A DNA stretch of 27,106 bases from a virus: the IMG/VR virus record IMGVR_UViG_3300044675_003800, positions 1 to 27,106 of that record; one strand, written 5' to 3'. Below, one piece after another: positions 1,764-15,005 of the stretch. The notes below the pieces were generated by a model. That model saw only the letters and a list, made by a program, of their open reading frames with translations. It searched no databases and was not told the origin of the DNA. A program made the position numbers and the translations under genes. The stretch's first letter is position 1, and every line of letters begins with the position of its first letter.

Positions 1764-1770
1764 TATTTAG
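1764..1770 (-). promoter_or_regulatory. T4-type late promoter element CTAAATA
   Basis: The minus strand reads CTAAATA, then 7 nt, then the ATG at 1756. It resembles the T4 late consensus TATAAATA and overlaps the terL stop codon. The promoter role is inferred from recurrence of the motif at gene starts in this window. Confidence 0.5.
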
Positions 1771-3356
1771 CGTAGCATTGATATGAACGGCATTGGCTCA
1801 ATGATGTTATCGCCGTGATCTTTCATTTGTGTGTCTAATTCTGCGTGGTATGTTTGCAACATCATCAGCATTCGCACAGCCAACAGCGAACTCATAACAA
1901 GATCATCAGTTTCTCCGGGTTTGGCAGCATAACTACCACCGGCAGCAACAAAGGTTTTGAGCTCACTGATCAAGGGTCTGCTGTACAGTCGCATGCGTCC
2001 AGATTCTACCAAGACTTTGAACTTGTTGCAAGCAGTGAGTTTGGCTTTGTTTGTGGTGTTGAATCCTTTGCGGAATCTGCGCCCTGTTGTGCCTGTTACA
2101 GAATTATCACTTAGAAAGTAACCCCGGATGTTCTCTTCTCCGTACTCATTTATTGAGATCAGTGCTGCTTCACCAATGGTGTTGTTTTCCACTGAGTAGT
2201 AGATCTTTTTGTCGTCTTTGGTGATTTCGTACAGTTCATTCACAATGTCCGCCAACAGTTTGACCTGTGTAGGGATGTCTGTTTTGTTGTGCCGCCACTC
2301 AGCCACTTGCTCTGTGGTATCTGCTTCAAACACTTGTATGGCAGCAGGGTCGCCGCCGGTGCCTAAACTAGGATCCAAGGCCACAATGTATATCTTGTCT
2401 TTAGTGGGTGTTTTGTACCAGCGTACTTGCCCAGTTCTGCGATTGGGTTCTACTCCCTCTAGGTCCAACAGTTTGGTAGGCGCAATTAGTGTTTCATCAT
2501 TGATAACAAACTCGCATTCCATTTCTCTACGGAATCGATCTTCACCTAACTGTGCCAGTTGTTCCAGCCCCCACTTTTCATCCCTGTCAGGATGTTCGCG
2601 CCAATTGCTTCTAAATGCACGGAATCCGTTGATGCCTAGTTCAGTGGTGTTACCATGCTCGTCTTCAGTCTTGTTGGCACCTTTCCACAAGTATGCAAAC
2701 TGATCTTCGTCTGAGTTGGGGGTACTTGTAATAATTGCTTTACCACCCGTGGCCAATGTAGGACTGATAGAAGTCCAGAACTCTCTGGCAATAGTGGGTC
2801 GCACAAACGCAAATTCGTCAGCGTACAGCAAGGATATACTCATACCCCGTCCAGTTGTTTCGGTTGTGGTCTGTGCTACAATACGACTGCCGTTTTCGAA
2901 CTCTAGTGAGTTTTTGTTGTAACTGGTAGCACCTGCTCGGATGTGATTGGGACACAGTTCATATGCATATCTAATACGTTGCATGATCTCCTGCGCACCT
3001 GTGTATTTGTGTGCTGCTACTAGAATAGTCGAATCTGGCACAAACATTGCATACCATAATAAGTAACCAGCAGCCGAAGTTGATTTGCCGGTTTGTCGAG
3101 GCATTAGCGATATCGAATACCTGTAGTTGTGATAAGTTTCAATCAGTCTGGTTTGATATTCAAACGGATGATACAGCATTTTGCCACGTGTGGGATGCTG
3201 AATAAAGAAAAAGTTATCCATGAAGTACAGTGGCCCAGTTACAGGGTCTGCACATTTTGCAAATTCAATTAATTCATCTTCAGTGTAGACTTCTTTGCGG
3301 TGCGGTGCTTTGACCAACACTGTTTCTAAATTTTTACTTGATGGTGGCGAAATCAT
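1767..3356 (-). CDS. 17: Large terminase subunit (T4 gp17-like packaging ATPase/nuclease)
   Basis: This is the DNA-packaging motor, which translocates concatemeric DNA into the prohead and cuts it. The 529-aa protein has the full two-domain architecture. The ATPase domain has Walker A MPRQTGKST (residues 85-93), Walker B LLYADE with the catalytic Glu (176-181) and coupling motif STPNS (211-215). The RNase H-like nuclease has D328 in ALDPSLGTGGD, E390 in SVENN and the acidic pair in ETDDLVMS near 484-485. It is somewhat shorter than T4 gp17 (about 610 aa). The start overlaps the end of the SGNH gene by 23 nt, and no other Met occurs before residue 46, so this start is favoured. The small subunit candidate is about 10.7 kb away rather than adjacent as in T4. 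Confidence 0.96.
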   Translation of the reverse strand: MISPPSSKNLETVLVKAPHRKEVYTEDELIEFAKCADPVTGPLYFMDNFFFIQHPTRGKMLYHPFEYQTRLIETYHNYRYSISLMPRQTGKSTSAAGYLLWYAMFVPDSTILVAAHKYTGAQEIMQRIRYAYELCPNHIRAGATSYNKNSLEFENGSRIVAQTTTETTGRGMSISLLYADEFAFVRPTIAREFWTSISPTLATGGKAIITSTPNSDEDQFAYLWKGANKTEDEHGNTTELGINGFRAFRSNWREHPDRDEKWGLEQLAQLGEDRFRREMECEFVINDETLIAPTKLLDLEGVEPNRRTGQVRWYKTPTKDKIYIVALDPSLGTGGDPAAIQVFEADTTEQVAEWRHNKTDIPTQVKLLADIVNELYEITKDDKKIYYSVENNTIGEAALISINEYGEENIRGYFLSDNSVTGTTGRRFRKGFNTTNKAKLTACNKFKVLVESGRMRLYSRPLISELKTFVAAGGSYAAKPGETDDLVMSSLLAVRMLMMLQTYHAELDTQMKDHGDNIIEPMPFISMLR

Positions 3357-5273: not shown

Positions 5274-6398
5274 TCACAAGCACGATTGTATTTCCGGCCA
5301 TAAACGCTCAAACTCACCCAGTGTGTTAGGGTGATATTGTTGTTCTATTTGTACAGTATGTTCACGCAGTTGCGGTCTCAAGTCTTGTTTTGATTGTATG
5401 TTTTGCGACACTGTTTCAAAGAACTGTTGCTCTGCTGGCAAACAAATGTTGTGAGACAACAATTTTTTAATTTCATCCTGTGCCAATGCCACAACATCAG
5501 CACCTAGATTACTAGGGTCAAGGCATTCGGGTTGATACAGACTTTGCCAGTGTATGGTCAGATCACGCTGTCTGGCAAACTCAGTCAGTTCCTGTAAATT
5601 GGTAGCATTGTATATGTTGTACACAGCATGTACACCGCCCCAGTGACCTTGATCACGCATGAGTTGTTGTATAGCGTCCAAATTTTTTAGCAACAATGAC
5701 CACAAACCGCCGTGTCGTACATATTCAAATCTGTCACCAATATTGTCAAAGCTCAAGCTCCACCCAACTTTGTTACGCAGGGCTAGTTTTTTAAATATGC
5801 GATTGTTTTCCAGTTCAACACTAGCATTGGTTATCAGTGTGACCACACAGTCCTCTGGAATCACATCCAGCAGTCGATCATTTTCAGGCAGCAACAAAGG
5901 CTCTCCGCCTACCAAGGCCACTTCACGTATGTGGCCATGATGCTGTTCAAGATAATCACACACTGCTTCATAGTAAGGTCTTGCTCCTGATGCCACAGAC
6001 ATGTTCTTCAGTGCGGCCCATTTGCTACTGCATGCTTCTGCACAGTAGTTGCAACTGAGGTTGCAAGTGGTATTCCAACGCACATCAATCAAGGTAGGTA
6101 CGTGTTTGGTGTTGTCAGCCGTGGTGGGATCAAATTCGGGACTTACTGAATTGTGCCAATCACGTTCACTGCGCCCATAACGTTCGGCCTGCACACAGTT
6201 GTAACAGTAGGCATGTGGTTCCCCACGCTGTATGCTTTGACGTATTTCAGCCATTAGATCGCTGTTGAGCACTTGTTCAATGGTTTGAGAATTGAGGTTG
6301 CCCAGCATGTTGGGGTTGCCAGCACAGCATGTTTTAACGTCACCTCGGGGATTGATGTGCAGGCCACGCCAGGGGGCTGCACAGTAGAAATTGCTCAT
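5274..6398 (-). CDS. Radical SAM protein with N-terminal Cys clusters (Twitch/SPASM-like)
   Basis: A 374-aa radical SAM enzyme. The signature CNLSCNYC (C112, C116, C119; CxxxCxxC) would bind the [4Fe-4S] cluster that cleaves S-adenosylmethionine, and GGEP at 164-167 is the usual SAM-contact motif. Upstream of the barrel are C6, the pair C24-C25 and C65/C68 (YCYNC), which suggest an extra Fe-S or zinc site as in Twitch/SPASM proteins but N-terminally placed. The substrate is unknown; peptide or sugar modification are the common roles. It heads a cassette with the glycosyltransferase-like and SGNH genes. The ATG is preceded by GTAAATA and 4 nt (CGGT), a late-promoter arrangement seen at three other genes here. 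No Shine-Dalgarno is visible. Confidence 0.9.
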   Translation of the reverse strand: MSNFYCAAPWRGLHINPRGDVKTCCAGNPNMLGNLNSQTIEQVLNSDLMAEIRQSIQRGEPHAYCYNCVQAERYGRSERDWHNSVSPEFDPTTADNTKHVPTLIDVRWNTTCNLSCNYCAEACSSKWAALKNMSVASGARPYYEAVCDYLEQHHGHIREVALVGGEPLLLPENDRLLDVIPEDCVVTLITNASVELENNRIFKKLALRNKVGWSLSFDNIGDRFEYVRHGGLWSLLLKNLDAIQQLMRDQGHWGGVHAVYNIYNATNLQELTEFARQRDLTIHWQSLYQPECLDPSNLGADVVALAQDEIKKLLSHNICLPAEQQFFETVSQNIQSKQDLRPQLREHTVQIEQQYHPNTLGEFERLWPEIQSCL

Positions 6399-6416: not shown

Positions 6417-6854
6417 TCATTGGCACCAAGACGTTTTGGCTTCGCCGTAGTATTCTCTGGCATAGCCATTCACAATCAGCATCTGGCGCAGACTTTGACC
6501 ATTTAGAATGACATCTCCCAGTACACGACCACCGTACTTGTCCCAATCCATGAGAATGATCTGACGCTGGGTGGACTGTGCAATTGCATTTTTAGTGAAA
6601 GCGGTAGCGGCTTGGCCTCGTTGGTTTTCACTTTCGCATTGAGCTCGATGTCCTTTTTCTGGAGTATCAACGCCAAACACTCGGATTGACAGTTCTTTTT
6701 TAAGGGGGTCGGGTAGAAAGGGTGCGTGAAAGGCCACTGTGTCGCCGTCTATGACTCTGGTGATTTCAGCGTCATAGGTCACACCAGGTTTTTGTTTGCC
6801 TTGTGCTAGAGCCAATACAGGAACGACAAGTAAGAGTAGGATGAGTTTTTTCAT
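6417..6854 (-). CDS. Secreted thermonuclease-like protein (staphylococcal nuclease fold)
   Basis: A 145-aa protein with a signal peptide: MKK, then a leucine/valine-rich core (residues 4-16), with probable cleavage after ALA at 15-17. The mature part is an SNase domain. IDGDT (35-39) supplies the calcium-binding Asp, IRVFGVDTPE (57-66) supplies the catalytic Arg58, Asp63 and Glu66, and GGR (108-110) supplies the second catalytic Arg. All key residues are present, so it should be an active Ca-dependent sugar-nonspecific nuclease exported to the periplasm or outside. The start is set by the signal peptide; the upstream in-frame start at 6881 would put nine residues before MKK and overlap the fibre gene. 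An AATAAATA element lies 5 nt upstream. Possible roles are degrading extracellular or incoming DNA. Confidence 0.9.
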   Translation of the reverse strand: MKKLILLLLVVPVLALAQGKQKPGVTYDAEITRVIDGDTVAFHAPFLPDPLKKELSIRVFGVDTPEKGHRAQCESENQRGQAATAFTKNAIAQSTQRQIILMDWDKYGGRVLGDVILNGQSLRQMLIVNGYAREYYGEAKTSWCQ

Positions 6855-6859
6855 GTCAA

Positions 6860-6867
6860 TATTTATT
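6860..6867 (-). promoter_or_regulatory. T4-type late promoter element AATAAATA
   Basis: AATAAATA on the minus strand, 5 nt before the nuclease ATG at 6854 and overlapping the tail-fibre stop codon. Confidence 0.5.
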
Positions 6868-9271
6868 AGTTGCAATACCACACTCCGCCCACATAGGTGG
6901 CCAACACAATTTGTCCTTGTTGTGTTAATCCGGTGTTGCCCACTACAGTTGCTGGACTTTGGGCAGTGACTGTGTCGTTGGGAGAACCTAAGTGTACTGT
7001 GTCGGCGATTTGATATTGTCTTCCGTTGTAGGCACCATTGGCTGCATTGGGCAAGGTAACAGTTAAATTTTTAGCAGTAAGACCAATCCAGTAATCCGTT
7101 GTGGTGGCTGTGGTATTGGCTGCTGACAGCCTGGTGTTCACTGCCCAGGCATTGACATTGATAGCACCATATTGATCACGTACCACAATGGTGTTGGCTG
7201 TGTTGGCCGTGGTGGCATCTGTTATGATGTTGGCTGTGTTACCTGTGGTGGTTGCTGCAATATGAACTGTGCTACTCAGTGCAGTAGGGGTGATTGTGGT
7301 GATCACGCCTGTGAGTTGACTGCCGTTGCCCAGGAAGTAGTTGCCAGTGACATTGCCTGTGGTGCTGATGCCTGCGTTGATCACAGTGTTGCCACCAGAG
7401 AATATGCCGTAGGCACCAACTACATTTCCAGCGGTACTGACATTGCCAGTGGTAACAATATTACCGTAGAATGTGCCATTGAAGTTGGTGGCGTTGACAT
7501 TGCCCACAACACTGAGCACATTGGCTGCGGCATTAAAAGTAAGAAAACCAATGTCAGAAACTTGCTTGCCTGACCCAACAATGGCAATGCGTCCTGGTGT
7601 GAGATTTTGCCCAATCAAGTTGCCACCAGTGACATTGCCGGCTGCACTGACTATACCCCCTATGGTGGCATTGGTGCTGATTATGTTGTTGCCAGTTATG
7701 TTGCCCACAACACTGGCACCAGTGCTGTTGATGGTCATGCGCACATTGCTGACATTGTCTGTGCCGTCAGTGAAGAACTTGATGACTCGGGCAGCAGTTT
7801 GTGTGCCTATCACAAGGTTGCCACCGTTGATGTACAAGTAGCCGTCATTGGCACCGGTCACAGCATAGTCCACGTTGGCATACACGTTGGAGTTGATGCC
7901 CATGTCAATGTAATACGTGCTGTCATCACCGTTGTTGGCCACTGCTACAATGTCTGATGACGCATTGGCAGTTTGACTGTGATTCTTCAGGACAATCTGG
8001 CTGTAGTTGTCCACACTGGTATCACCTTGCAATAATGCATTGGTAAAATCGTAATTGTTGTAGGCATTGCCTAAATTTATTCGGCCATTGGCTATGACAT
8101 CAGCAACATATATTGTGTCAGCGGTGATGCCAACTGAGTTGCCAACGTCCATTTGCCAGGTGTTGCTGGTGGTGTTGTACAGCATGCCAGCATACACGCC
8201 ATTGGCTATGTTACCAGTGACAATACCGCTGACGTCAATGCCAGCAAAGTTGGTGGCAGTGTTGGCCACGTACACAATCTTGCCCCCAACAACACTTGGA
8301 ATAACGTTTGACACGTTGCCCAAGATGGTAAGGTCATTCACTGTGAGTGAATACAACTGTACGTTGGCTGTGGTGTTGAAGTTTTGTGGCAAACTCAAGG
8401 TAAGCACATTGCCTACATTGGCCACATTGATCTGATTTGTGGTGCCGTTCACGCCCAGTACGCCTGTGCTGCCAATGGTGATGGCACCTGTGCTGCTACT
8501 TAGACTAATACCTGAGGCTGCTGTGAGACTGTTGACCACATTGCTGAGTTGAGCACCTGTGCCGTAGATGTTGCCGCCCACATAAAGATCTTTGGCAATG
8601 CCTCCACCGCCTGCTGTTTGCAAGGATCCTGATGTGACATTGGAACTGTTGTTGACGTTGGCAATGATTGTTTCAGCATTGCTGAATATTTGACCAGTAA
8701 TGGTTTCAATACGAAAGATTGGATCAGTGGTACCAAATGTGTTGATGGTAAAACCAGTGGTGCTGATCACAATGTTGGCTGCAAGGTTTTCAATAACCAC
8801 CGAGTTAGCAATATTGCCGCTTGCGTCAAGCACAGTGATACTCTGTGGGCCAAAGTATGCATCTTGCCAAGGCACAGTGGGCAGACCTAAACTGTAACCG
8901 CTGTTGGTGGGCAACAAGTTACCGGTGTGATAGATATTGCCTGTGCCAGTGTCTGCTATGAAATCTGTGACTATGGTATCACCAGTTTCGATGTTGCCCA
9001 CAGAACTCAATCCAGTGCTGGTGACCACTAGATTGGGTGTTCCGCCAAAGTTTGCACCATCAAGATTGAACTGTATGTTGTTGACTGATCCGCCGGGTAC
9101 ACCATTGCCTGAACCACCACCAGTGATTAAAACGCCGCCGGGAGTTGATCCGTCGCTGTAGTAAAAAGCATTGGTATCAGGATTCCACCAGATACGCTCT
9201 TGTTGCCCTACATAGGTAGCACCATTTGCGTTGTTGTCTCGGCTGGTAAAAAGATTTTGGAGGAAACTCAT
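6866..9271 (-). CDS. Repetitive tail fibre / receptor-binding-type structural protein
   Basis: An 801-aa protein rich in Gly, Asn, Thr, Val and Ile with very few charged residues, typical of beta-structured phage fibres. The N-terminus (MSFLQNLFTSRDNN, then ERIWWNPDTNAFYYSDG) probably anchors it to the virion. The centre and C-terminal half carry many copies of short motifs such as GNVTG, GNxxGxGSQL and TGNxxS. The end (TVTLPNAANGAYNGRQYQIAD) resembles the C-terminal domain of other phage fibre or collar proteins. There is no catalytic motif and no obvious intramolecular chaperone. It is followed immediately by the nuclease gene. The start has AAGGTGG 4 nt upstream. Host recognition is inferred from composition and family resemblance; a structural spacer is an alternative. 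Confidence 0.82.
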   Translation of the reverse strand: MSFLQNLFTSRDNNANGATYVGQQERIWWNPDTNAFYYSDGSTPGGVLITGGGSGNGVPGGSVNNIQFNLDGANFGGTPNLVVTSTGLSSVGNIETGDTIVTDFIADTGTGNIYHTGNLLPTNSGYSLGLPTVPWQDAYFGPQSITVLDASGNIANSVVIENLAANIVISTTGFTINTFGTTDPIFRIETITGQIFSNAETIIANVNNSSNVTSGSLQTAGGGGIAKDLYVGGNIYGTGAQLSNVVNSLTAASGISLSSSTGAITIGSTGVLGVNGTTNQINVANVGNVLTLSLPQNFNTTANVQLYSLTVNDLTILGNVSNVIPSVVGGKIVYVANTATNFAGIDVSGIVTGNIANGVYAGMLYNTTSNTWQMDVGNSVGITADTIYVADVIANGRINLGNAYNNYDFTNALLQGDTSVDNYSQIVLKNHSQTANASSDIVAVANNGDDSTYYIDMGINSNVYANVDYAVTGANDGYLYINGGNLVIGTQTAARVIKFFTDGTDNVSNVRMTINSTGASVVGNITGNNIISTNATIGGIVSAAGNVTGGNLIGQNLTPGRIAIVGSGKQVSDIGFLTFNAAANVLSVVGNVNATNFNGTFYGNIVTTGNVSTAGNVVGAYGIFSGGNTVINAGISTTGNVTGNYFLGNGSQLTGVITTITPTALSSTVHIAATTTGNTANIITDATTANTANTIVVRDQYGAINVNAWAVNTRLSAANTTATTTDYWIGLTAKNLTVTLPNAANGAYNGRQYQIADTVHLGSPNDTVTAQSPATVVGNTGLTQQGQIVLATYVGGVWYCN
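7290..7715 (-). repeat. Degenerate GNVTG / GNGSQL repeats in the tail fibre gene
   Basis: The translated segment repeatedly shows GNITGN, AAGNVTGGNLIG, VGNVNATNFNG, TTGNVSTAGN, STTGNVTGNYF and GNGSQLTGV. At DNA level the plus strand shows recurrent acattgcc and ttgcc(a/c) blocks. These are short imperfect repeats of the beta-fibre type, likely recombination-prone. Confidence 0.7.
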
Positions 9272-9280
9272 AGCACCACC

Positions 9281-9619
9281 TTATTCTAGTGGCTCGTCGT
9301 TGCTGAGTTCGTGTGTGATCAATGCATTGACGCCAGCGGCCTTTTTCATGCGTTCCAAAGCGTCAGTTTCTTCTGGTTCCATGGGAGTCACACGATAGTT
9401 GCTGGCTTCTGGATTGTTGGCCAATTCGTCAACGTTTTCATCAAATTCGTTTTCAACGCCCACTGCTTTTTTCAACAGTTCGTATTTGCCTTGTAATGGC
9501 GGCAAAAATACATCAGTGGGCACTGGAATCAAGCCTGATGTATGCGGTGCATGATCCACAGGTTGTGACTTTGCGTCGATCATGTCAGCCATTTGGCGAA
9601 GTATTTCTGCGGCTCTCAT
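9281..9619 (-). CDS. Small phage protein with MRAxEIL N-terminus, unknown function
   Basis: A 112-aa acidic protein beginning MRAAEILRQMADMIDA, the same MRAxE opening as its two upstream neighbours, and ending HELSNDEPLE. It has two short matching helices, ELLKKAVGV (around 48-56) and RMKKAAGV, that resemble the REMAGI motifs of the 815-aa protein at 10960-13407. It is hydrophilic, with no membrane segment. The start has AAGGAA about 6 nt upstream and a CTAAATA late element 21 nt upstream. It resembles unannotated proteins I recall from uncultured aquatic phages. I infer a minor head or internal virion protein from the company it keeps. Confidence 0.75.
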   Translation of the reverse strand: MRAAEILRQMADMIDAKSQPVDHAPHTSGLIPVPTDVFLPPLQGKYELLKKAVGVENEFDENVDELANNPEASNYRVTPMEPEETDALERMKKAAGVNALITHELSNDEPLE

Positions 9620-9640
9620 TGAAGTTCCTTGTTCTAGTAT

Positions 9641-9647
9641 TATTTAG
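9641..9647 (-). promoter_or_regulatory. T4-type late promoter element CTAAATA
   Basis: CTAAATA on the minus strand in the intergenic gap, 21 nt before the ATG at 9619, leaving room for a leader with AAGGAA as ribosome binding site. Confidence 0.5.
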
Positions 9648-9679
9648 CAGAAAAAGGACTAATGCTAAAATGTGATGAT

Positions 9680-10066
9680 TTAACGTGGGTAGCCAGCAAA
9701 GGCCTTGACTGGACTTTGTTTCAACACAGACGCAGGTTCTACGCTGTTGGGTGTGCTGACCTGTACTTTTTTAGCGGGCAAGCCGGCCATTTTTAATGCT
9801 TGATCAATTATGGGTTCAACACTGGCATTGAACCCACCAATCACAGCGTCTTCACCAAATGCTGCTGCCGGACTCCAGTCGGGCATGAATGGTATTGGAT
9901 CTTTGACTCCAGCGTCACTTCTGGCACGAGCCATGGCCACACCCAGTCGATAGATCTGGTATGGATCGCTAGAGTTCACGCCAGGCAACACAAACACATG
10001 ATTCATGGGATCTGCTTGCTCTGGAGGCAGCGTTGTTTCTTCTTTGAGGAATTCGCGGGCTCTCAT
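9680..10066 (-). CDS. Small phage protein with capsid-targeting-like N-terminus and SPVKAFAGYPR tail
   Basis: A 128-aa protein of unknown function. The N-terminus MRAREFLKEE resembles the T4 capsid-targeting peptide (MKTYQEFIAEA), including an L-x-E triplet where the T4 prohead protease would cut (L7-K-E9). The C-terminus is SPVKAFAGYPR, identical over 11 residues to the end of the upstream neighbour. The middle (HVFVLPGVNSSDPYQIYRLG, then MARARSDAGVKDP) shows no recognised domain. The start overlaps the upstream stop by 4 nt (ATGA), so it is translationally coupled. A packaged internal head protein is my inference; direct evidence is limited to the termini. Confidence 0.78.
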   Translation of the reverse strand: MRAREFLKEETTLPPEQADPMNHVFVLPGVNSSDPYQIYRLGVAMARARSDAGVKDPIPFMPDWSPAAAFGEDAVIGGFNASVEPIIDQALKMAGLPAKKVQVSTPNSVEPASVLKQSPVKAFAGYPR

Positions 10067-10434
10067 CTGGGATACCCCGCAAAGGCTTTGACTGGGCTTG
10101 TGACATGAACAGCAGGATGTTCTTGACTGCGTAGGTCACCTTTGTTTAAATCTTCATGATGACTGCCCACGGCCTTGTAGGCCATTTTCAACATGTCTTG
10201 TTCTTCAGGAGTGTAAGGTGCTGCAATGTTGTTGCGGCCTGCCCAACTCTCGCCATCAAGTTCAGGCACAAATGAGCCATCAGTTGACGCCACAGCCATC
10301 ATGATACGGTTGAGTTCGTACACCCGGTCAGCAAACTGTGCATCACGAAATTTGTTCAAGCCCACTGTGGCTTGATTCTGTCGTTTGCTCATTTTACCAA
10401 CCTTGTCTTCAGTGACGAACTCAGTTGCTCTCAT
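10063..10434 (-). CDS. Small phage protein with capsid-targeting-like N-terminus and SPVKAFAGYPR tail
   Basis: A 123-aa protein of unknown function. The N-terminus MRATEFVTED parallels its downstream neighbour (MRAREFLKEE) and the T4 capsid-targeting peptide, with V-T-E at residues 7-9 as a possible prohead-protease site. The C-terminus SPVKAFAGYPR is the same 11 residues as in the neighbour, although the bodies between the two ends are unrelated. The middle is basic then acidic (KMSKRQNQATVGLNKFRD; YTPEEQDMLKMAYKAVG). The pair looks like different cargoes between the same two terminal tags. Confidence 0.78.
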   Translation of the reverse strand: MRATEFVTEDKVGKMSKRQNQATVGLNKFRDAQFADRVYELNRIMMAVASTDGSFVPELDGESWAGRNNIAAPYTPEEQDMLKMAYKAVGSHHEDLNKGDLRSQEHPAVHVTSPVKAFAGYPR

Positions 10435-10435
10435 G

Positions 10436-10783
10436 TTAGGTGGCTGGAGTTGCTATACCATTGCTGGCTGCTGTGGCACTTGAGGCTGTGCCCAGGGCAG
10501 TGGCAGTGAAGCCGCCAGCACCTGTGAGAATGTTCAAATAGTTGCCTGCACCCACGTAGTATTGGGCTACAGCGTTGCCTGGCACAGCAATAGCGTTGGC
10601 ATACAAATTGCCCACAGGAGTAGTCATTGTGGCGTTGGCCGTATTGCCATTAGTTTGTTTATAGGTCAATTGCACTGCACTGACTTGAAATGTCACATTG
10701 CTGAGTGTGGTAGCAAATTCTACTTTGTCCGTGGTCCAAAGAGTGTTGCCAATTGCATTTACAACTTGTGTTGTGGTAGCCAT
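10436..10783 (-). CDS. Small Ala/Thr/Asn-rich probable virion protein
   Basis: A 115-aa protein almost free of charged residues, rich in Ala, Thr, Val and Asn. It has a predicted beta-type body (VEFATTLSNVTFQVSAVQLT, then YYVGAGNYLNILTGAGG) and a low-complexity alanine/serine tail. This composition is typical of small virion surface or decoration proteins. I recognise no family. The start codon overlaps the stop of the upstream 57-aa gene by one nucleotide (TAATG), so the two are likely translated together. Confidence 0.72.
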   Translation of the reverse strand: MATTTQVVNAIGNTLWTTDKVEFATTLSNVTFQVSAVQLTYKQTNGNTANATMTTPVGNLYANAIAVPGNAVAQYYVGAGNYLNILTGAGGFTATALGTASSATAASNGIATPAT

Positions 10784-10956
10784 TATTTGTCACCTTGAGG
10801 TTTGGAGACTATGGGTTGAAATAGTTCTCGTGCTTGATACATAACACCTGGGATTTCCACAGGTGTTTGTTTCACGGCTGGGATAGCGGGCGGTACATAA
10901 TTGTTGGCGTTACGCTGTGCAATTTCTGCTGCCACTTCACTGTATGGTCTCATCAT
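10783..10956 (-). CDS. 57-aa small protein, unknown function
   Basis: A short frame encoding MMRPYSEVAAEIAQRNANNY and ending VSKPQGDK. It fills the gap between the 815-aa gene (stop at 10960) and the 115-aa gene. A ribosome site (AAGGGG) lies 6 nt before the first of two tandem ATGs, and the stop overlaps the next start as TAATG. The opening MRPYSEVAAEI is loosely like the MRAxEF leaders of its neighbours. It is proline-rich in the middle (VPPAIPAVKQTPVEIPG) and without membrane segments. The tight spacing on both sides and the ribosome site are the evidence that it is real. Confidence 0.7.
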   Translation of the reverse strand: MMRPYSEVAAEIAQRNANNYVPPAIPAVKQTPVEIPGVMYQARELFQPIVSKPQGDK

Positions 10957-10959
10957 GAT

Positions 10960-13407
10960 TTACCCCTTGTATGCTTTCCATTGGTTGGTGAGAGCAAAAA
11001 TGCTTTCATCAATGTCTTTTTTCTTGATTGCATTTGTTCCAGGAATCTTGTCACCAATTTTTACATCATCGTCTTCGAGTCCTTTGGTGAACAAGTTGCC
11101 TTCTTCAGTTTTTTCTTCGTCAACTGCTTTTTTGGCTTCTCGAATGCCAGCCATTTCTCGCATGCGTTGAATGCTGTCTTTGCTAAATTCAGCATTGGCT
11201 GAATCAGAATTCATGTCAGAGATGTCTGGACTCATACCTGATTTCAATGCAGAATTGACTTCGTCGTTTGACATAGCAGCAATGTCAGGACTCATGCCCA
11301 ATTTTAATGCAGCATTGACTTCGTCCTTTGACATAGAAGCAATTTTAGAAGATGTTGGGCCTAGAGGGTTACGAATTTTGATGCCGGCCATTTCTCTAAT
11401 TCTTTGCAGGTCATCATCATTGTGTGGTCGAGTAGCCACAACAGGCACAGTGGATTGTCCGTTGCCGGCAACGTCTGCTTTGGGCTTGTTTAGACCGCCA
11501 GCATATTGCAATGCATCGCTAGAAGTTTCTGTGTTGGTAGGCCAGTCAGGAGCATTTTCGTCCACTGCTTCTTGTACATCGCCACAACCACAATCTGGCA
11601 TTCCGCATGTTGAGCATGATTCATCACTTTGCAGTTCACGTCCCTGACCGCCCAGGCCTGCTGACTTCAGCATCATGGCCAATTTCATTGCGTCATCATC
11701 AGTGGCTGTGACTGTGAGGCTTTTGTTGCCTTCTGTTGAGTCGCTCATGTTGATACTCATTGACTCAGCAATCATTTGTTCTAGTTCACGATTCATTGAG
11801 TCGTAAATGCCTTTACCGAAACTCATGCCGCTGCTGGATTTGGCTGGACTGGTATCCTTGTTGGACACGGATGCTGTGTCTGTGTCATCGTCCATTTGTT
11901 TTTCTGGTTTGCCTGGTTTGACAGACATTTTACCGTTGCCAATGGTTGCACTGACTCTTCCAGTACTGGAAGTGGTCAAAGTCTTCCCAGGACCAGTACG
12001 TGTGGTAGTGATTCTGCCTTCTTCAGAAGTCTCATCAACTTCTTCTTTGTTTTTAGAAACTTTTTTAGGCAGGCCTTTGGTACTACCCTTGGCAAATTTA
12101 TTCAATTCTTTGGGTTGCATTTTGGCCATTTCTGCACTGGCAGAACCTGGTTTGGCTTTGGCTGTGCCTTTTTGTACACCACGTGCAATACGAGCAGCAA
12201 CGGCTTGATTCTTGCTCTTTGGTTCTTCAGCAATTGCTTCGTCGTCGTCGGCTTGATTCTGCATGTATTCGTCCACAGAGATCATCATGCCTTCAATCTT
12301 GGCCAGTTTGCTTTGTACCCATTCTGGCAAATTATCGTCGTCGCCTAGAACTTTGCTCAAGGCCTGTGCATGACGCACAATGGTCTTGATGTCGTTTTTG
12401 GCCATGTCGCCTTCTTGATCGTATTCACCTTGATCACGAATGTCTACTTCGCCTTCCTTGGTCATCAACTTAGACTTGCCACTAGGTCCTTTGGCACCAA
12501 TAGCACCCTTTGTGCCTTTGGGTCTGCCACGTCCACGTGGTCCTGCTTGTGTGTCAGCATCATCATCTGCACCCACTGAATTACCTTGGTCGTCCACTCT
12601 GCGTGTGACCATGCGGCCTGTAGCAGTGTGCTTGATATCGTGTTTGTGACCACGTTCTACTGAACCAACTTTGGGTTTGGCAGCTCTTGGTGTGCTCATG
12701 TCAAACGCAGTGCCTTTGGAACGTTCTTCGTCCATTTCAGGCTTGGCACCTTTACGTAACATGGCAAAATCGTTGGCATCTAGTTTGCCATTCTTGTTCA
12801 TGTCAATTTTCTTTTGTTTGGGGCTCAATGCATTACGCATGGCTTCAGCAGCCACATCGCCCAGCATTTCGTCAACTTCTTTTTTGGCACCGGCAATCTT
12901 GTCGGCAAAGGTGATTTTGTTTGCAGGAGGTGCCAATTTGGCAAATGACTTTTGTTTAGGCGTCATGCCAGCTTCTTTCACACCTTCAGGATCCATTGGT
13001 ACAGGTACTCCTTTTTCACCTGGCTTGGGTGGATCAGCAGTCCATACACCACCTTTGATGGTGCCCATAAATTCTCCTTTGGGAGCTGGACGAGTACCGC
13101 GAGTCATTCCTTTTTCTTTTTGTTGTGGTCGTTTTGGTTCAATTTCTAAATCTTTATAGACACCACCTTGATTGTACATGTCTTCATCCACTTGGTCGTT
13201 GTCATACTTGTCATATTTTTTTCTAACAGGATCAAGGGCTTTGCCTTCGCGACCGGCCTTGGCCAATGCTTGCATGCCTTGTTTGCCGTACTTTTCATAG
13301 CCTTTGGCAGCACGACTCATGTCACGCTCATTCAATTGCTGGTGTGTGACTTCAGGTGTGGCACGAATGCTGTCTAGTTTTTTGTTTAAATCGTAAAAGA
13401 AACTCAT
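10960..13407 (-). CDS. 815-aa multi-motif charged protein (AT-hook, EF-hand-like loop, Cys-rich knuckle)
   Basis: A long, mostly hydrophilic protein of unknown function starting MSFFYDLNKKLDSIRATPE. In order: basic region 30-70; EF-hand-like loop DMNKNGKLDAND (202-213); AT-hook-like PRGRGRPKGTK (290-300); a conserved-looking helical block (338-385) around LPEWVQSKLAKIEG; basic linkers 400-455; a Cys-rich knuckle CSTCGMPDCGC (598-608); and APDWPTNTETSSDALQYAGG (619-638). RIREMAGI (669-676) and RMREMAGI (748-755) flank two 20-residue repeats (690-729). The C-terminus NQWKAYKG slightly resembles the KAFAGYPR tails of neighbouring proteins. The DNA-binding motif, charge and position among capsid-targeting-like genes suggest a prohead core or DNA-associated internal protein. 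This is inference. The ribosome site AGAGGA lies within the end of the upstream gene. Confidence 0.85.
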   Translation of the reverse strand: MSFFYDLNKKLDSIRATPEVTHQQLNERDMSRAAKGYEKYGKQGMQALAKAGREGKALDPVRKKYDKYDNDQVDEDMYNQGGVYKDLEIEPKRPQQKEKGMTRGTRPAPKGEFMGTIKGGVWTADPPKPGEKGVPVPMDPEGVKEAGMTPKQKSFAKLAPPANKITFADKIAGAKKEVDEMLGDVAAEAMRNALSPKQKKIDMNKNGKLDANDFAMLRKGAKPEMDEERSKGTAFDMSTPRAAKPKVGSVERGHKHDIKHTATGRMVTRRVDDQGNSVGADDDADTQAGPRGRGRPKGTKGAIGAKGPSGKSKLMTKEGEVDIRDQGEYDQEGDMAKNDIKTIVRHAQALSKVLGDDDNLPEWVQSKLAKIEGMMISVDEYMQNQADDDEAIAEEPKSKNQAVAARIARGVQKGTAKAKPGSASAEMAKMQPKELNKFAKGSTKGLPKKVSKNKEEVDETSEEGRITTTRTGPGKTLTTSSTGRVSATIGNGKMSVKPGKPEKQMDDDTDTASVSNKDTSPAKSSSGMSFGKGIYDSMNRELEQMIAESMSINMSDSTEGNKSLTVTATDDDAMKLAMMLKSAGLGGQGRELQSDESCSTCGMPDCGCGDVQEAVDENAPDWPTNTETSSDALQYAGGLNKPKADVAGNGQSTVPVVATRPHNDDDLQRIREMAGIKIRNPLGPTSSKIASMSKDEVNAALKLGMSPDIAAMSNDEVNSALKSGMSPDISDMNSDSANAEFSKDSIQRMREMAGIREAKKAVDEEKTEEGNLFTKGLEDDDVKIGDKIPGTNAIKKKDIDESIFALTNQWKAYKG
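11221..11340 (-). repeat. Tandem 60-bp coding repeat (two 20-residue units)
   Basis: Residues 690-709 (ASMSKDEVNAALKLGMSPDI) and 710-729 (AAMSNDEVNSALKSGMSPDI) are tandem copies differing at four positions. A third, decayed unit (SDMNSDSANAEFSKD) follows. The DNA copies are clearly similar, suggesting recent slippage or duplication within the 815-aa gene. Confidence 0.85.
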
Positions 13408-13411
13408 TGTA

Positions 13412-14020
13412 TTATCCTCTTGGGTTGGCGCCAGTTGCTGGCTTGGGTGGACGAGTGATCTTGGTCATTGGGCTTTGTGTGCCTTGAGCAATTTCATTTG
13501 TGGTTTTAGCAGGTGGTGTCTTGCCACCAGCAATGGTGAAGTCACTGCGATATGCATTTTTCAACACAGCATGGTCATAAGGACCAGTTGCGTAGTCTTT
13601 CTTCAATGCACGTTGTTCGGCATCAGGGGCAGGATAATCTGTGTCATCCAACAGGTCTTTGTTTTGATCGTCAATCTTTTCGTACTCATCTACCAGGCCA
13701 TCCACGTATGGTGTGGTCTGCATGATGATGTGATTGGGGTCCATGCCCAGCAACTGTGCCAGTTGTTTGATCTGTGGCTCAATGGCTGGATACTTGAAAC
13801 TCACATCAAACATTGTTACTGAATCGTTTTTGTTGTTGGGAAAGTCAGTGGGAATGATCTGTATAGGCGTGGTCCGGGGATCACTCATTTTAACAGGATC
13901 AAATTGATCCAACTTTTTCTTCAACTGCGATACCAAATCACCAGGCGGTTTGCCCAGCATTTTGATACGATAGTTGTAGGTACGTTCGCTTTCGGCGAGG
14001 TAATGGGCAAAATTTTTCAT
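13412..14020 (-). CDS. 202-aa phage protein with capsid-targeting-like N-terminus, unknown function
   Basis: The protein begins MKNFAHYLAESE, a close match in layout to the T4 capsid-targeting peptide MKTYQEFIAEA, with L-A-E at residues 8-10 exactly where T4 prohead protease cuts its internal proteins. The body appears folded (YRIKMLGKPPGDLVSQLKKK; TMFDVSFKYPAIEPQIKQLA; LDDTDYPAPDAEQRALKKDY), and the C-terminus is proline-rich and disordered-looking (TKITRPPKPATGANPRG). ATG 14020 is chosen because AGGAA lies 7 nt upstream; an earlier in-frame ATG (14038) would swallow that site. A late element AATAAATA precedes it. I recall similar unannotated proteins in uncultured aquatic phages. A head-internal or head-associated role is inferred. 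Confidence 0.8.
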   Translation of the reverse strand: MKNFAHYLAESERTYNYRIKMLGKPPGDLVSQLKKKLDQFDPVKMSDPRTTPIQIIPTDFPNNKNDSVTMFDVSFKYPAIEPQIKQLAQLLGMDPNHIIMQTTPYVDGLVDEYEKIDDQNKDLLDDTDYPAPDAEQRALKKDYATGPYDHAVLKNAYRSDFTIAGGKTPPAKTTNEIAQGTQSPMTKITRPPKPATGANPRG

Positions 14021-14573: not shown

Positions 14574-15005
14574 TCAAGCACGACCGTTGTGAAACATATC
14601 CGATTCTGTTATCACTCTAAAACTTAACCCGTTTTTTCTGGCCCATTTGGTGGCTGCGTCCCATTTGGCATAGTTGATTGCTACTACAGCACGGTCTCTG
14701 CTGTTCATTTTTGACTCGATCACACTTTGACTTTTGGGTTTGATTTCAATCAACTCGGCTCGCACAGTGTTGTCTCTGTTGCGATAAGTGATCAAAAAGT
14801 CTGGAATGTATTGTGTCATCTTGCCTGTTATGGGATGACGATAAGGGATAGCAATGCTTTCGCTGGCCCATTGCAACACATGATCGTTGGTGTCGCAGAA
14901 CTTCATAAAACTCAGTTCCCAACCTGATCTGTAGCGAGGCGTTCCATTGCCCGCATACTTTTCACGATTGAGTATGACATAGTTGCCCTGTGCCCAACGA
15001 CTCAT
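14574..15005 (-). CDS. 4: Head completion protein, T4 gp4-like (endonuclease-like fold)
   Basis: A 143-aa protein closely following the T4 gp4 pattern: RYRSGWELSFMKFCD (24-38), WASESIAIPYRHPITGKMTQY (46-66), PDFLI (68-72), ELIEIKP (84-90). Glu30, Asp69 and the E-I-K triplet at 87-89 form a PD-(D/E)xK nuclease-like set. In T4, gp4 is needed to complete the filled head before tail joining and may trim or seal the DNA end. Length matches the family (about 150 aa). The start overlaps the upstream stop by 4 nt (ATGA), so it is coupled to the 119-aa gene. Confidence 0.88.
   Translation of the reverse strand: MSRWAQGNYVILNREKYAGNGTPRYRSGWELSFMKFCDTNDHVLQWASESIAIPYRHPITGKMTQYIPDFLITYRNRDNTVRAELIEIKPKSQSVIESKMNSRDRAVVAINYAKWDAATKWARKNGLSFRVITESDMFHNGRA

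Follow-up and report, generated by a model that had tools for sequence, protein, structure and literature searches.

A nine-residue, T4-like leader predicted to target proteins to the heads of uncultured jumbo phages

The T4 internal proteins ipII and ipIII start with MKTYQEFIAE, a short N-terminal capsid-targeting sequence (CTS). According to a review of the T4 studies, the ten N-terminal residues are enough for IPIII to be incorporated; residues 4 and 7 weigh most in targeting, and residues 8 and 10 in processing (PMC9026906). In SPN3US and phiKZ, propeptides are mostly longer than 100 residues and end in an A-x-E or S-x-E motif, and the SPN3US paralogues gp53 and gp54 have identical N-termini and a diverged remainder (PMC5694885). 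The work on polyvalent proteins predicts packaging from domains and context, and a term search of that text found no shared short leader (PMC5512222). The window of this study, that is, the whole stretch of DNA analysed, is a 27,106-bp IMG/VR virus fragment in which two small tandem genes, A and B, start with the leader MRAxEF[IVL]xE. This leader is probably a capsid-targeting propeptide that the prohead protease gp21 cleaves, and a version of the T4 CTS particular to this lineage.

A first-pass annotation had described a cluster of five T4-like leaders, starting MRAREFLKEE, MRATEFVTED, MKNFAHYLAESE, MRAAEILRQM, and MMRPYSEVAAEI. All five N-termini are present, on the minus strand, and the leader M-R-A-x-E-F-[IVL]-x-E is borne out for the first two, A and B. 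The proteins of 112 and 57 residues fall outside the set, and the membership of the 202-residue protein is doubtful. The features of A and B are as follows.

9680..10066, minus strand: gene A, 128 residues, predicted internal head protein; isoelectric point (pI) of the mature form 5.2
10040..10066, minus strand: leader of A, MRAREFLKE, with a predicted cut after Glu9 (pattern match and family conservation)
9683..9715, minus strand: C-terminal tail of A, SPVKAFAGYPR, common to B
10063..10434, minus strand: gene B, 123 residues, likely paralogue of A with a stop-to-start overlap with it; mature pI 7.1
10408..10434, minus strand: leader of B, MRATEFVTE, with a predicted cut after Glu9 (pattern match and family conservation)
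10066..10098, minus strand: C-terminal tail of B, SPVKAFAGYPR, common to A

Residues R2, A3, E5, F6, and E9 are conserved at 96-100% in the A family (83 sequences) and at 99-100% in the B family (87 sequences); E9 itself stands at 99-100% in both, and residue 10 is free. When the sequences are anchored at the glutamate, F7, I8, and E10 of T4 correspond to F6, [IVL]7, and E9 of the leader. The DNA pattern for M-R-x-x-E-F-[ILVF]-x-E matches the window just twice, at the starts of A and B, and was found in none of 100 dinucleotide shuffles. As a positive control, the T4-length pattern was searched in the T4 genome and matched only ipII, ipIII, and gene 61.1. The last of these (NC_000866.4 18966-19130, minus strand) encodes a hypothetical protein starting MKTFKEFIKE, similar to the IPII and IPIII leaders, which may have gone unrecognized as an internal head protein.

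Outside the window, the leader is modular. A relaxed leader motif heads 19 genes in seven related contigs of 117-364 kb, and it does not occur at any of their roughly 8,080 internal methionines. IMG/VR was also scanned with DNA patterns, and the matches listed, pooled with further loci, gave at least 366 distinct leader open reading frames: at least 250 relatives of A and B, and at least 116 others in at least 35 BLAST clusters without detectable similarity beyond the leader, the largest of which (50 members) may be joined by shared accessory domains. A single phage can have it on several proteins with no other relationship, with at least six leader genes in genome G014 and four in G001. Cyanophage DUF6267 proteins start straight at the domain (MAKNTHLEHLED), whereas the DUF6267 carriers have MRAFEFLTE and a few residues ahead of it. 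In G001, a 1,638-residue multidomain protein (195757-205546; loci L158 and L159), by eye nucleotidyltransferase-, peptidase-, and acetyltransferase-like, clusters with two leader genes and with starts such as MKYREILEA and MRNYINLIEA.

Conservation ends at Glu9. With a pattern that left positions 8-10 unspecified (80 loci and 98 proteins among the matches listed), Glu9 was present in 89 of the 98 proteins and in 26 of the 35 cluster representatives, and positions 8 and 10-14 were diverse. The leader ends in the hydrophobic-x-Glu motif of prohead proteases at the point where conservation stops. In these phages the Peptidase_S77 (gp21) gene sits in a portal-core-gp21-scaffold-capsid cluster. Among the tested contigs that bear the leader and measure 190 kb or more, all have it except G001, which starts at the capsid gene and hence lacks the stretch where gp21 would lie. 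The window is likewise a fragment without the portal-to-capsid region.

The capsid protein of these phages has a nearly invariant arm, YLKE-NASAGSTASGNIAT, in 12 genomes, and its position and likeness to T4 gp23 point to a cut site. The gp23 counterpart reads SFLTE-AEIGG, where cleavage is established. Two short leader carriers resemble the arm, FIKE-TASAGATTSGNIAV and FIKE-NASVGATSSGSVAT, with 11 and 10 identities, against a best background of 9 identities among 5,140 hydrophobic-x-Glu sites. That best background site belongs to the same small-protein family and follows a second leader of eight residues, MKIQEIME-NASVGGTSAGSIAP. This second type, M-[KR]-[IV]-x-E-I-[LMV]-E, is found on a family of 60-82-residue proteins whose predicted mature start, NASxGxTSxGSIA, is like the capsid arm:

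G013 47889-48101, minus strand (locus L301): second-leader gene
G001 211651-211869, plus strand (locus L159): second-leader gene
L363, L377, L392, and L481: further loci with second-leader genes

Loci L405 and L417 encode the same kind of small protein with MRAxEFIKE in place of the eight-residue leader. Therefore, two leader types alternate before one predicted mature N-terminus, and this alternation before a capsid-like start is strong but indirect support for Glu9 as the predicted cut site.

The cargo of the leader is biased. In a Pfam search of 110 carriers other than A and B and 110 length-matched genes of the same phage group, with the 25 commonest families listed for each, the carriers matched mostly GNAT acetyltransferases, GH19 chitinase, LysM, and other wall hydrolases, and further ADP-ribosyltransferases, a polyvalent-protein kinase, ParB, LPD22, and DUFs. 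In contrast, the families listed for the control genes were Radical SAM, AAA, and metabolic ones. These carriers are also basic (median pI 8.9 versus 6.1, p 5e-8), and the sole match in a PADLOC scan of the carriers was a weak one to PglW. In three carriers a Tat-type twin-arginine signal begins directly after Glu9, compared with none of about 1,075 background genes in the same kind of test:

L340:2992-3612: Tat-type carrier with a GH19 or SLT peptidoglycan-hydrolase domain
L484:413-1297: Tat-type carrier with a GH19 or SLT peptidoglycan-hydrolase domain
L388:3858-4493: Tat-type carrier

The best-supported scheme for these uncultured T4-like jumbo phages is as follows. Through its nine N-terminal residues a protein would attach to the prohead core during assembly, the S77 prohead protease would cut after Glu9 so that the leader leaves, and the mature protein would remain beside the DNA inside the head. 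From there, many carriers would be ejected into the host; the ADP-ribosyltransferases, kinases, acetyltransferases, basic proteins, and peptidoglycan hydrolases among them look like injected effectors. A and B would be small internal head proteins, a conserved pair that probably arose by duplication and that also has SPVxxFxGYPR in common at the C-terminus.

This tail was not reported in the first-pass annotation. In A and B together it follows S-P-[VI]-x-x-F-x-G-Y-x-[RK], with S, F, G, and Y at about 100% in each family, which suggests a second binding partner. The A and B profiles align over the full length (E 1.7e-20), and with leader and tail removed the alignment is weak (E 0.0027, probability 11%). 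Therefore, A and B are probably tandem paralogues whose ends have been held much more strictly than their middles. Homology of A and B to named families was rejected, as neither had a match in PHROGs, Pfam, or phage records; tblastn of the mature proteins gave no match to any phage record, T4 included. AlphaFold2 models were weak (pLDDT 73 for B and 64 for A) and gave no significant fold match. Since both are conserved across the group and neither is basic, A and B are likely internal head (core) proteins rather than effectors.

Several points weigh against a capsid-targeting propeptide. Since A and B look like paralogues, their common start is not independent evidence, and the window holds one leader family only; neither mature protein (pI 5.2 and 7.1) is basic. 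T4 Tyr4, one of the two targeting residues, has no obvious counterpart in the leader, and 9 of the 98 pattern matches among those listed lack Glu9. Since a T4-like jumbo phage would be expected to have gp21 in any case, its co-occurrence with the leader is in part unsurprising. Wall hydrolases, present among the carriers, are usually regarded as lysis or tail enzymes. The leader was not found in the nearest cultured relatives searched (PA5oct, Phosso, Atu_ph07, and Kaldavass), nor among PA5oct virion proteins. Docking to the core, packaging, cleavage, and injection are all deduced from sequences.

It is also conceivable, if unlikely, that Glu9 is no protease site and that the leader either acts as a general binding helix or is a tag that sorts proteins to a target other than the head, such as the tail, a membrane, or a phage compartment. 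The head location of the carriers is itself a prediction, the 112-residue protein retains MRAxE without Glu9, and for the three carriers with a Tat-type signal after the leader an N-terminal role in export can be imagined. However, such a tag would leave unexplained the sharp end of conservation at Glu9, the match to the functional positions of T4, and the capsid-like residues that follow the leader in one carrier family. Plain paralogy, by which A and B start alike merely through duplication and the leader does nothing of its own, fits the tandem genes and the end-to-end profile alignment; as a full account it is contradicted by the same leader on at least 35 other clusters and by a leader much better conserved than the middle of A and B, and is very improbable. 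Chance resemblance of short N-termini accounts for the MRAAEIL and MRPYSEV starts, and probably also explains MKNFAHYLAESE, but for MRAxEFxxE the absence from all shuffles and from internal methionines contradicts it, and little credence is left to it for A and B. A nucleotide-level element at gene starts, acting in translation or regulation, can point to ATGAGAGC as a frequent spelling of the first codons, but it was rejected, being next to impossible, because the codons for R2, A3, E5, F6, and E9 vary synonymously with variable residues between them, so that the peptide rather than the DNA is selected.

A broader proposal is that the leader sets which proteins are packaged and injected by a large group of uncultured jumbo phages, and that a hydrolase carries tandem address tags; this proposal is tentative and has somewhat less than an even chance of being right. 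Cutting after Glu9 would expose an N-terminal Tat signal (MRAVEFIAE-IDRRGFLGALGAGAMAAAG), and the injected hydrolase may then be exported to the periplasm through the host Tat pathway, with two consecutive address tags on one protein.

The three remaining N-termini of the first-pass cluster are these:

9281..9619, minus strand: 112-residue protein starting MRAAEILRQM; MRAxE is present, Glu9 is not, and no cut is predicted
10783..10956, minus strand: 57-residue protein starting MMRPYSEVAAEI, not a leader; N-terminus variable in homologues
13412..14020, minus strand: 202-residue virion protein starting MKNFAHYLAESE, doubtful as a leader; ATG at 14020, reading frame open from 14038

The five N-termini as one set were thus given up: a T4-like leader fails for the 112-residue protein for want of a glutamate at position 9, and for the 57-residue protein because its start is not conserved in the family. 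The 202-residue protein matches phrog_14802 (E 8e-4). Its L-A-E triplet, on which the earlier claim relied, is near-invariant in the close group only, and conservation continues into S-E-R without a boundary. The triplet is missing from the homologues in PA5oct (gp282, detected in the virion by mass spectrometry, starting MKSFRDYYDAS) and in Phosso (starting MKNFYEYLSSV), so that membership in the leader set is doubtful.

The late genes lie on the minus strand of the window in the order of the Pseudomonas jumbo phage PA5oct: sheath, two tube proteins, a 119-residue protein, a gp4-type head closure protein, a 172-residue protein, and the 202-residue protein, followed by a large protein, the 57- and 115-residue genes, B, A, the 112-residue gene, and others, and then the terminase large subunit (TerL).

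1767..3356, minus strand: terminase large subunit (phrog_36964, E 6e-115; 51% identical to PA5oct)
10960..13407, minus strand: 815-residue protein at the syntenic position of PA5oct gp281, a virion protein
14574..15005, minus strand: gp4-type head closure protein (phrog_218, E 3e-40)

The PA5oct late cluster has the same order of sheath, tubes, gp4, gp283, gp282, gp281, and TerL; it differs in lacking A, B, and the 57-, 115-, and 112-residue genes between gp281 and TerL, and in having no MRAxEF leader. The PA5oct counterparts of the 202- and 815-residue genes are annotated as structural proteins detected by electrospray ionization tandem mass spectrometry. In gp281 (NC_071039.1 127321-128817; L489), confirmed in the virion by mass spectrometry, a capsid-arm-like KVEE-TASAGASSAGGIASV near residue 42 is a possible internal protease site. 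Judged by eye, the window also holds a radical-SAM-like gene (5274-6398, minus strand), and Radical SAM was the top Pfam family (7 of 110) in random control genes of these phages (set A2). Between it and a fibre-like gene lies a staphylococcal-nuclease-like gene with a signal peptide (6417-6881, minus strand), also by eye. An ARAGORN call of tRNA-Thr (tgt) at 13441-13532 on the plus strand, antisense within the 202-residue gene, is probably a false positive.

The phage proteins that are carried in the head and enter the host first are normally learned only through virion proteomics of cultured phages. Should the leader prove to be a capsid-targeting propeptide, a pattern of nine residues would predict the packaged set in uncultured giant phages, and that predicted set already includes kinases, ADP-ribosyltransferases, acetyltransferases, basic proteins, and wall hydrolases. 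It would also illustrate the diversification of the T4-style loading tag and could serve as a short handle by which proteins are brought into large capsids. Among the papers that a literature search covered, none describes an MRAxEF leader, which does not prove its absence, and a search for the string MRAREF had no phage paper among its seven matches.

Overall, the closest known system is the T4 CTS of IPI, IPII, and IPIII, with the short propeptide of Alt. The leader here and the T4 sequence are both short and N-terminal on unrelated head proteins (predicted ones here), with an E-F-I-x-E core, a terminal glutamate, a gp21-type protease, and ADP-ribosyltransferase cargo; T4 packages the ADP-ribosyltransferase Alt, which starts MELITE. 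However, the T4 sequence has ten residues and an M-K-T-Y start, whereas the leader here has nine residues, starts M-R-A, and occurs on many more protein families, with packaging and cleavage predicted from sequence. A and B are small like IPI-IPIII, but they are not basic and share no sequence similarity with them. The giant phages SPN3US and phiKZ also package many proteins in the head and cleave them after a glutamate, as is predicted here, although their long propeptides and A-x-E or S-x-E motif differ from the nine-residue leader; the gp53/gp54 pair resembles A and B in keeping its N-termini on diverged paralogues. The polyvalent proteins of Iyer et al. (2017, PMC5512222) share with the carriers ART-PolyVal, Kinase-PolyVal, LPD22, GNAT, ParB, and lysozymes.

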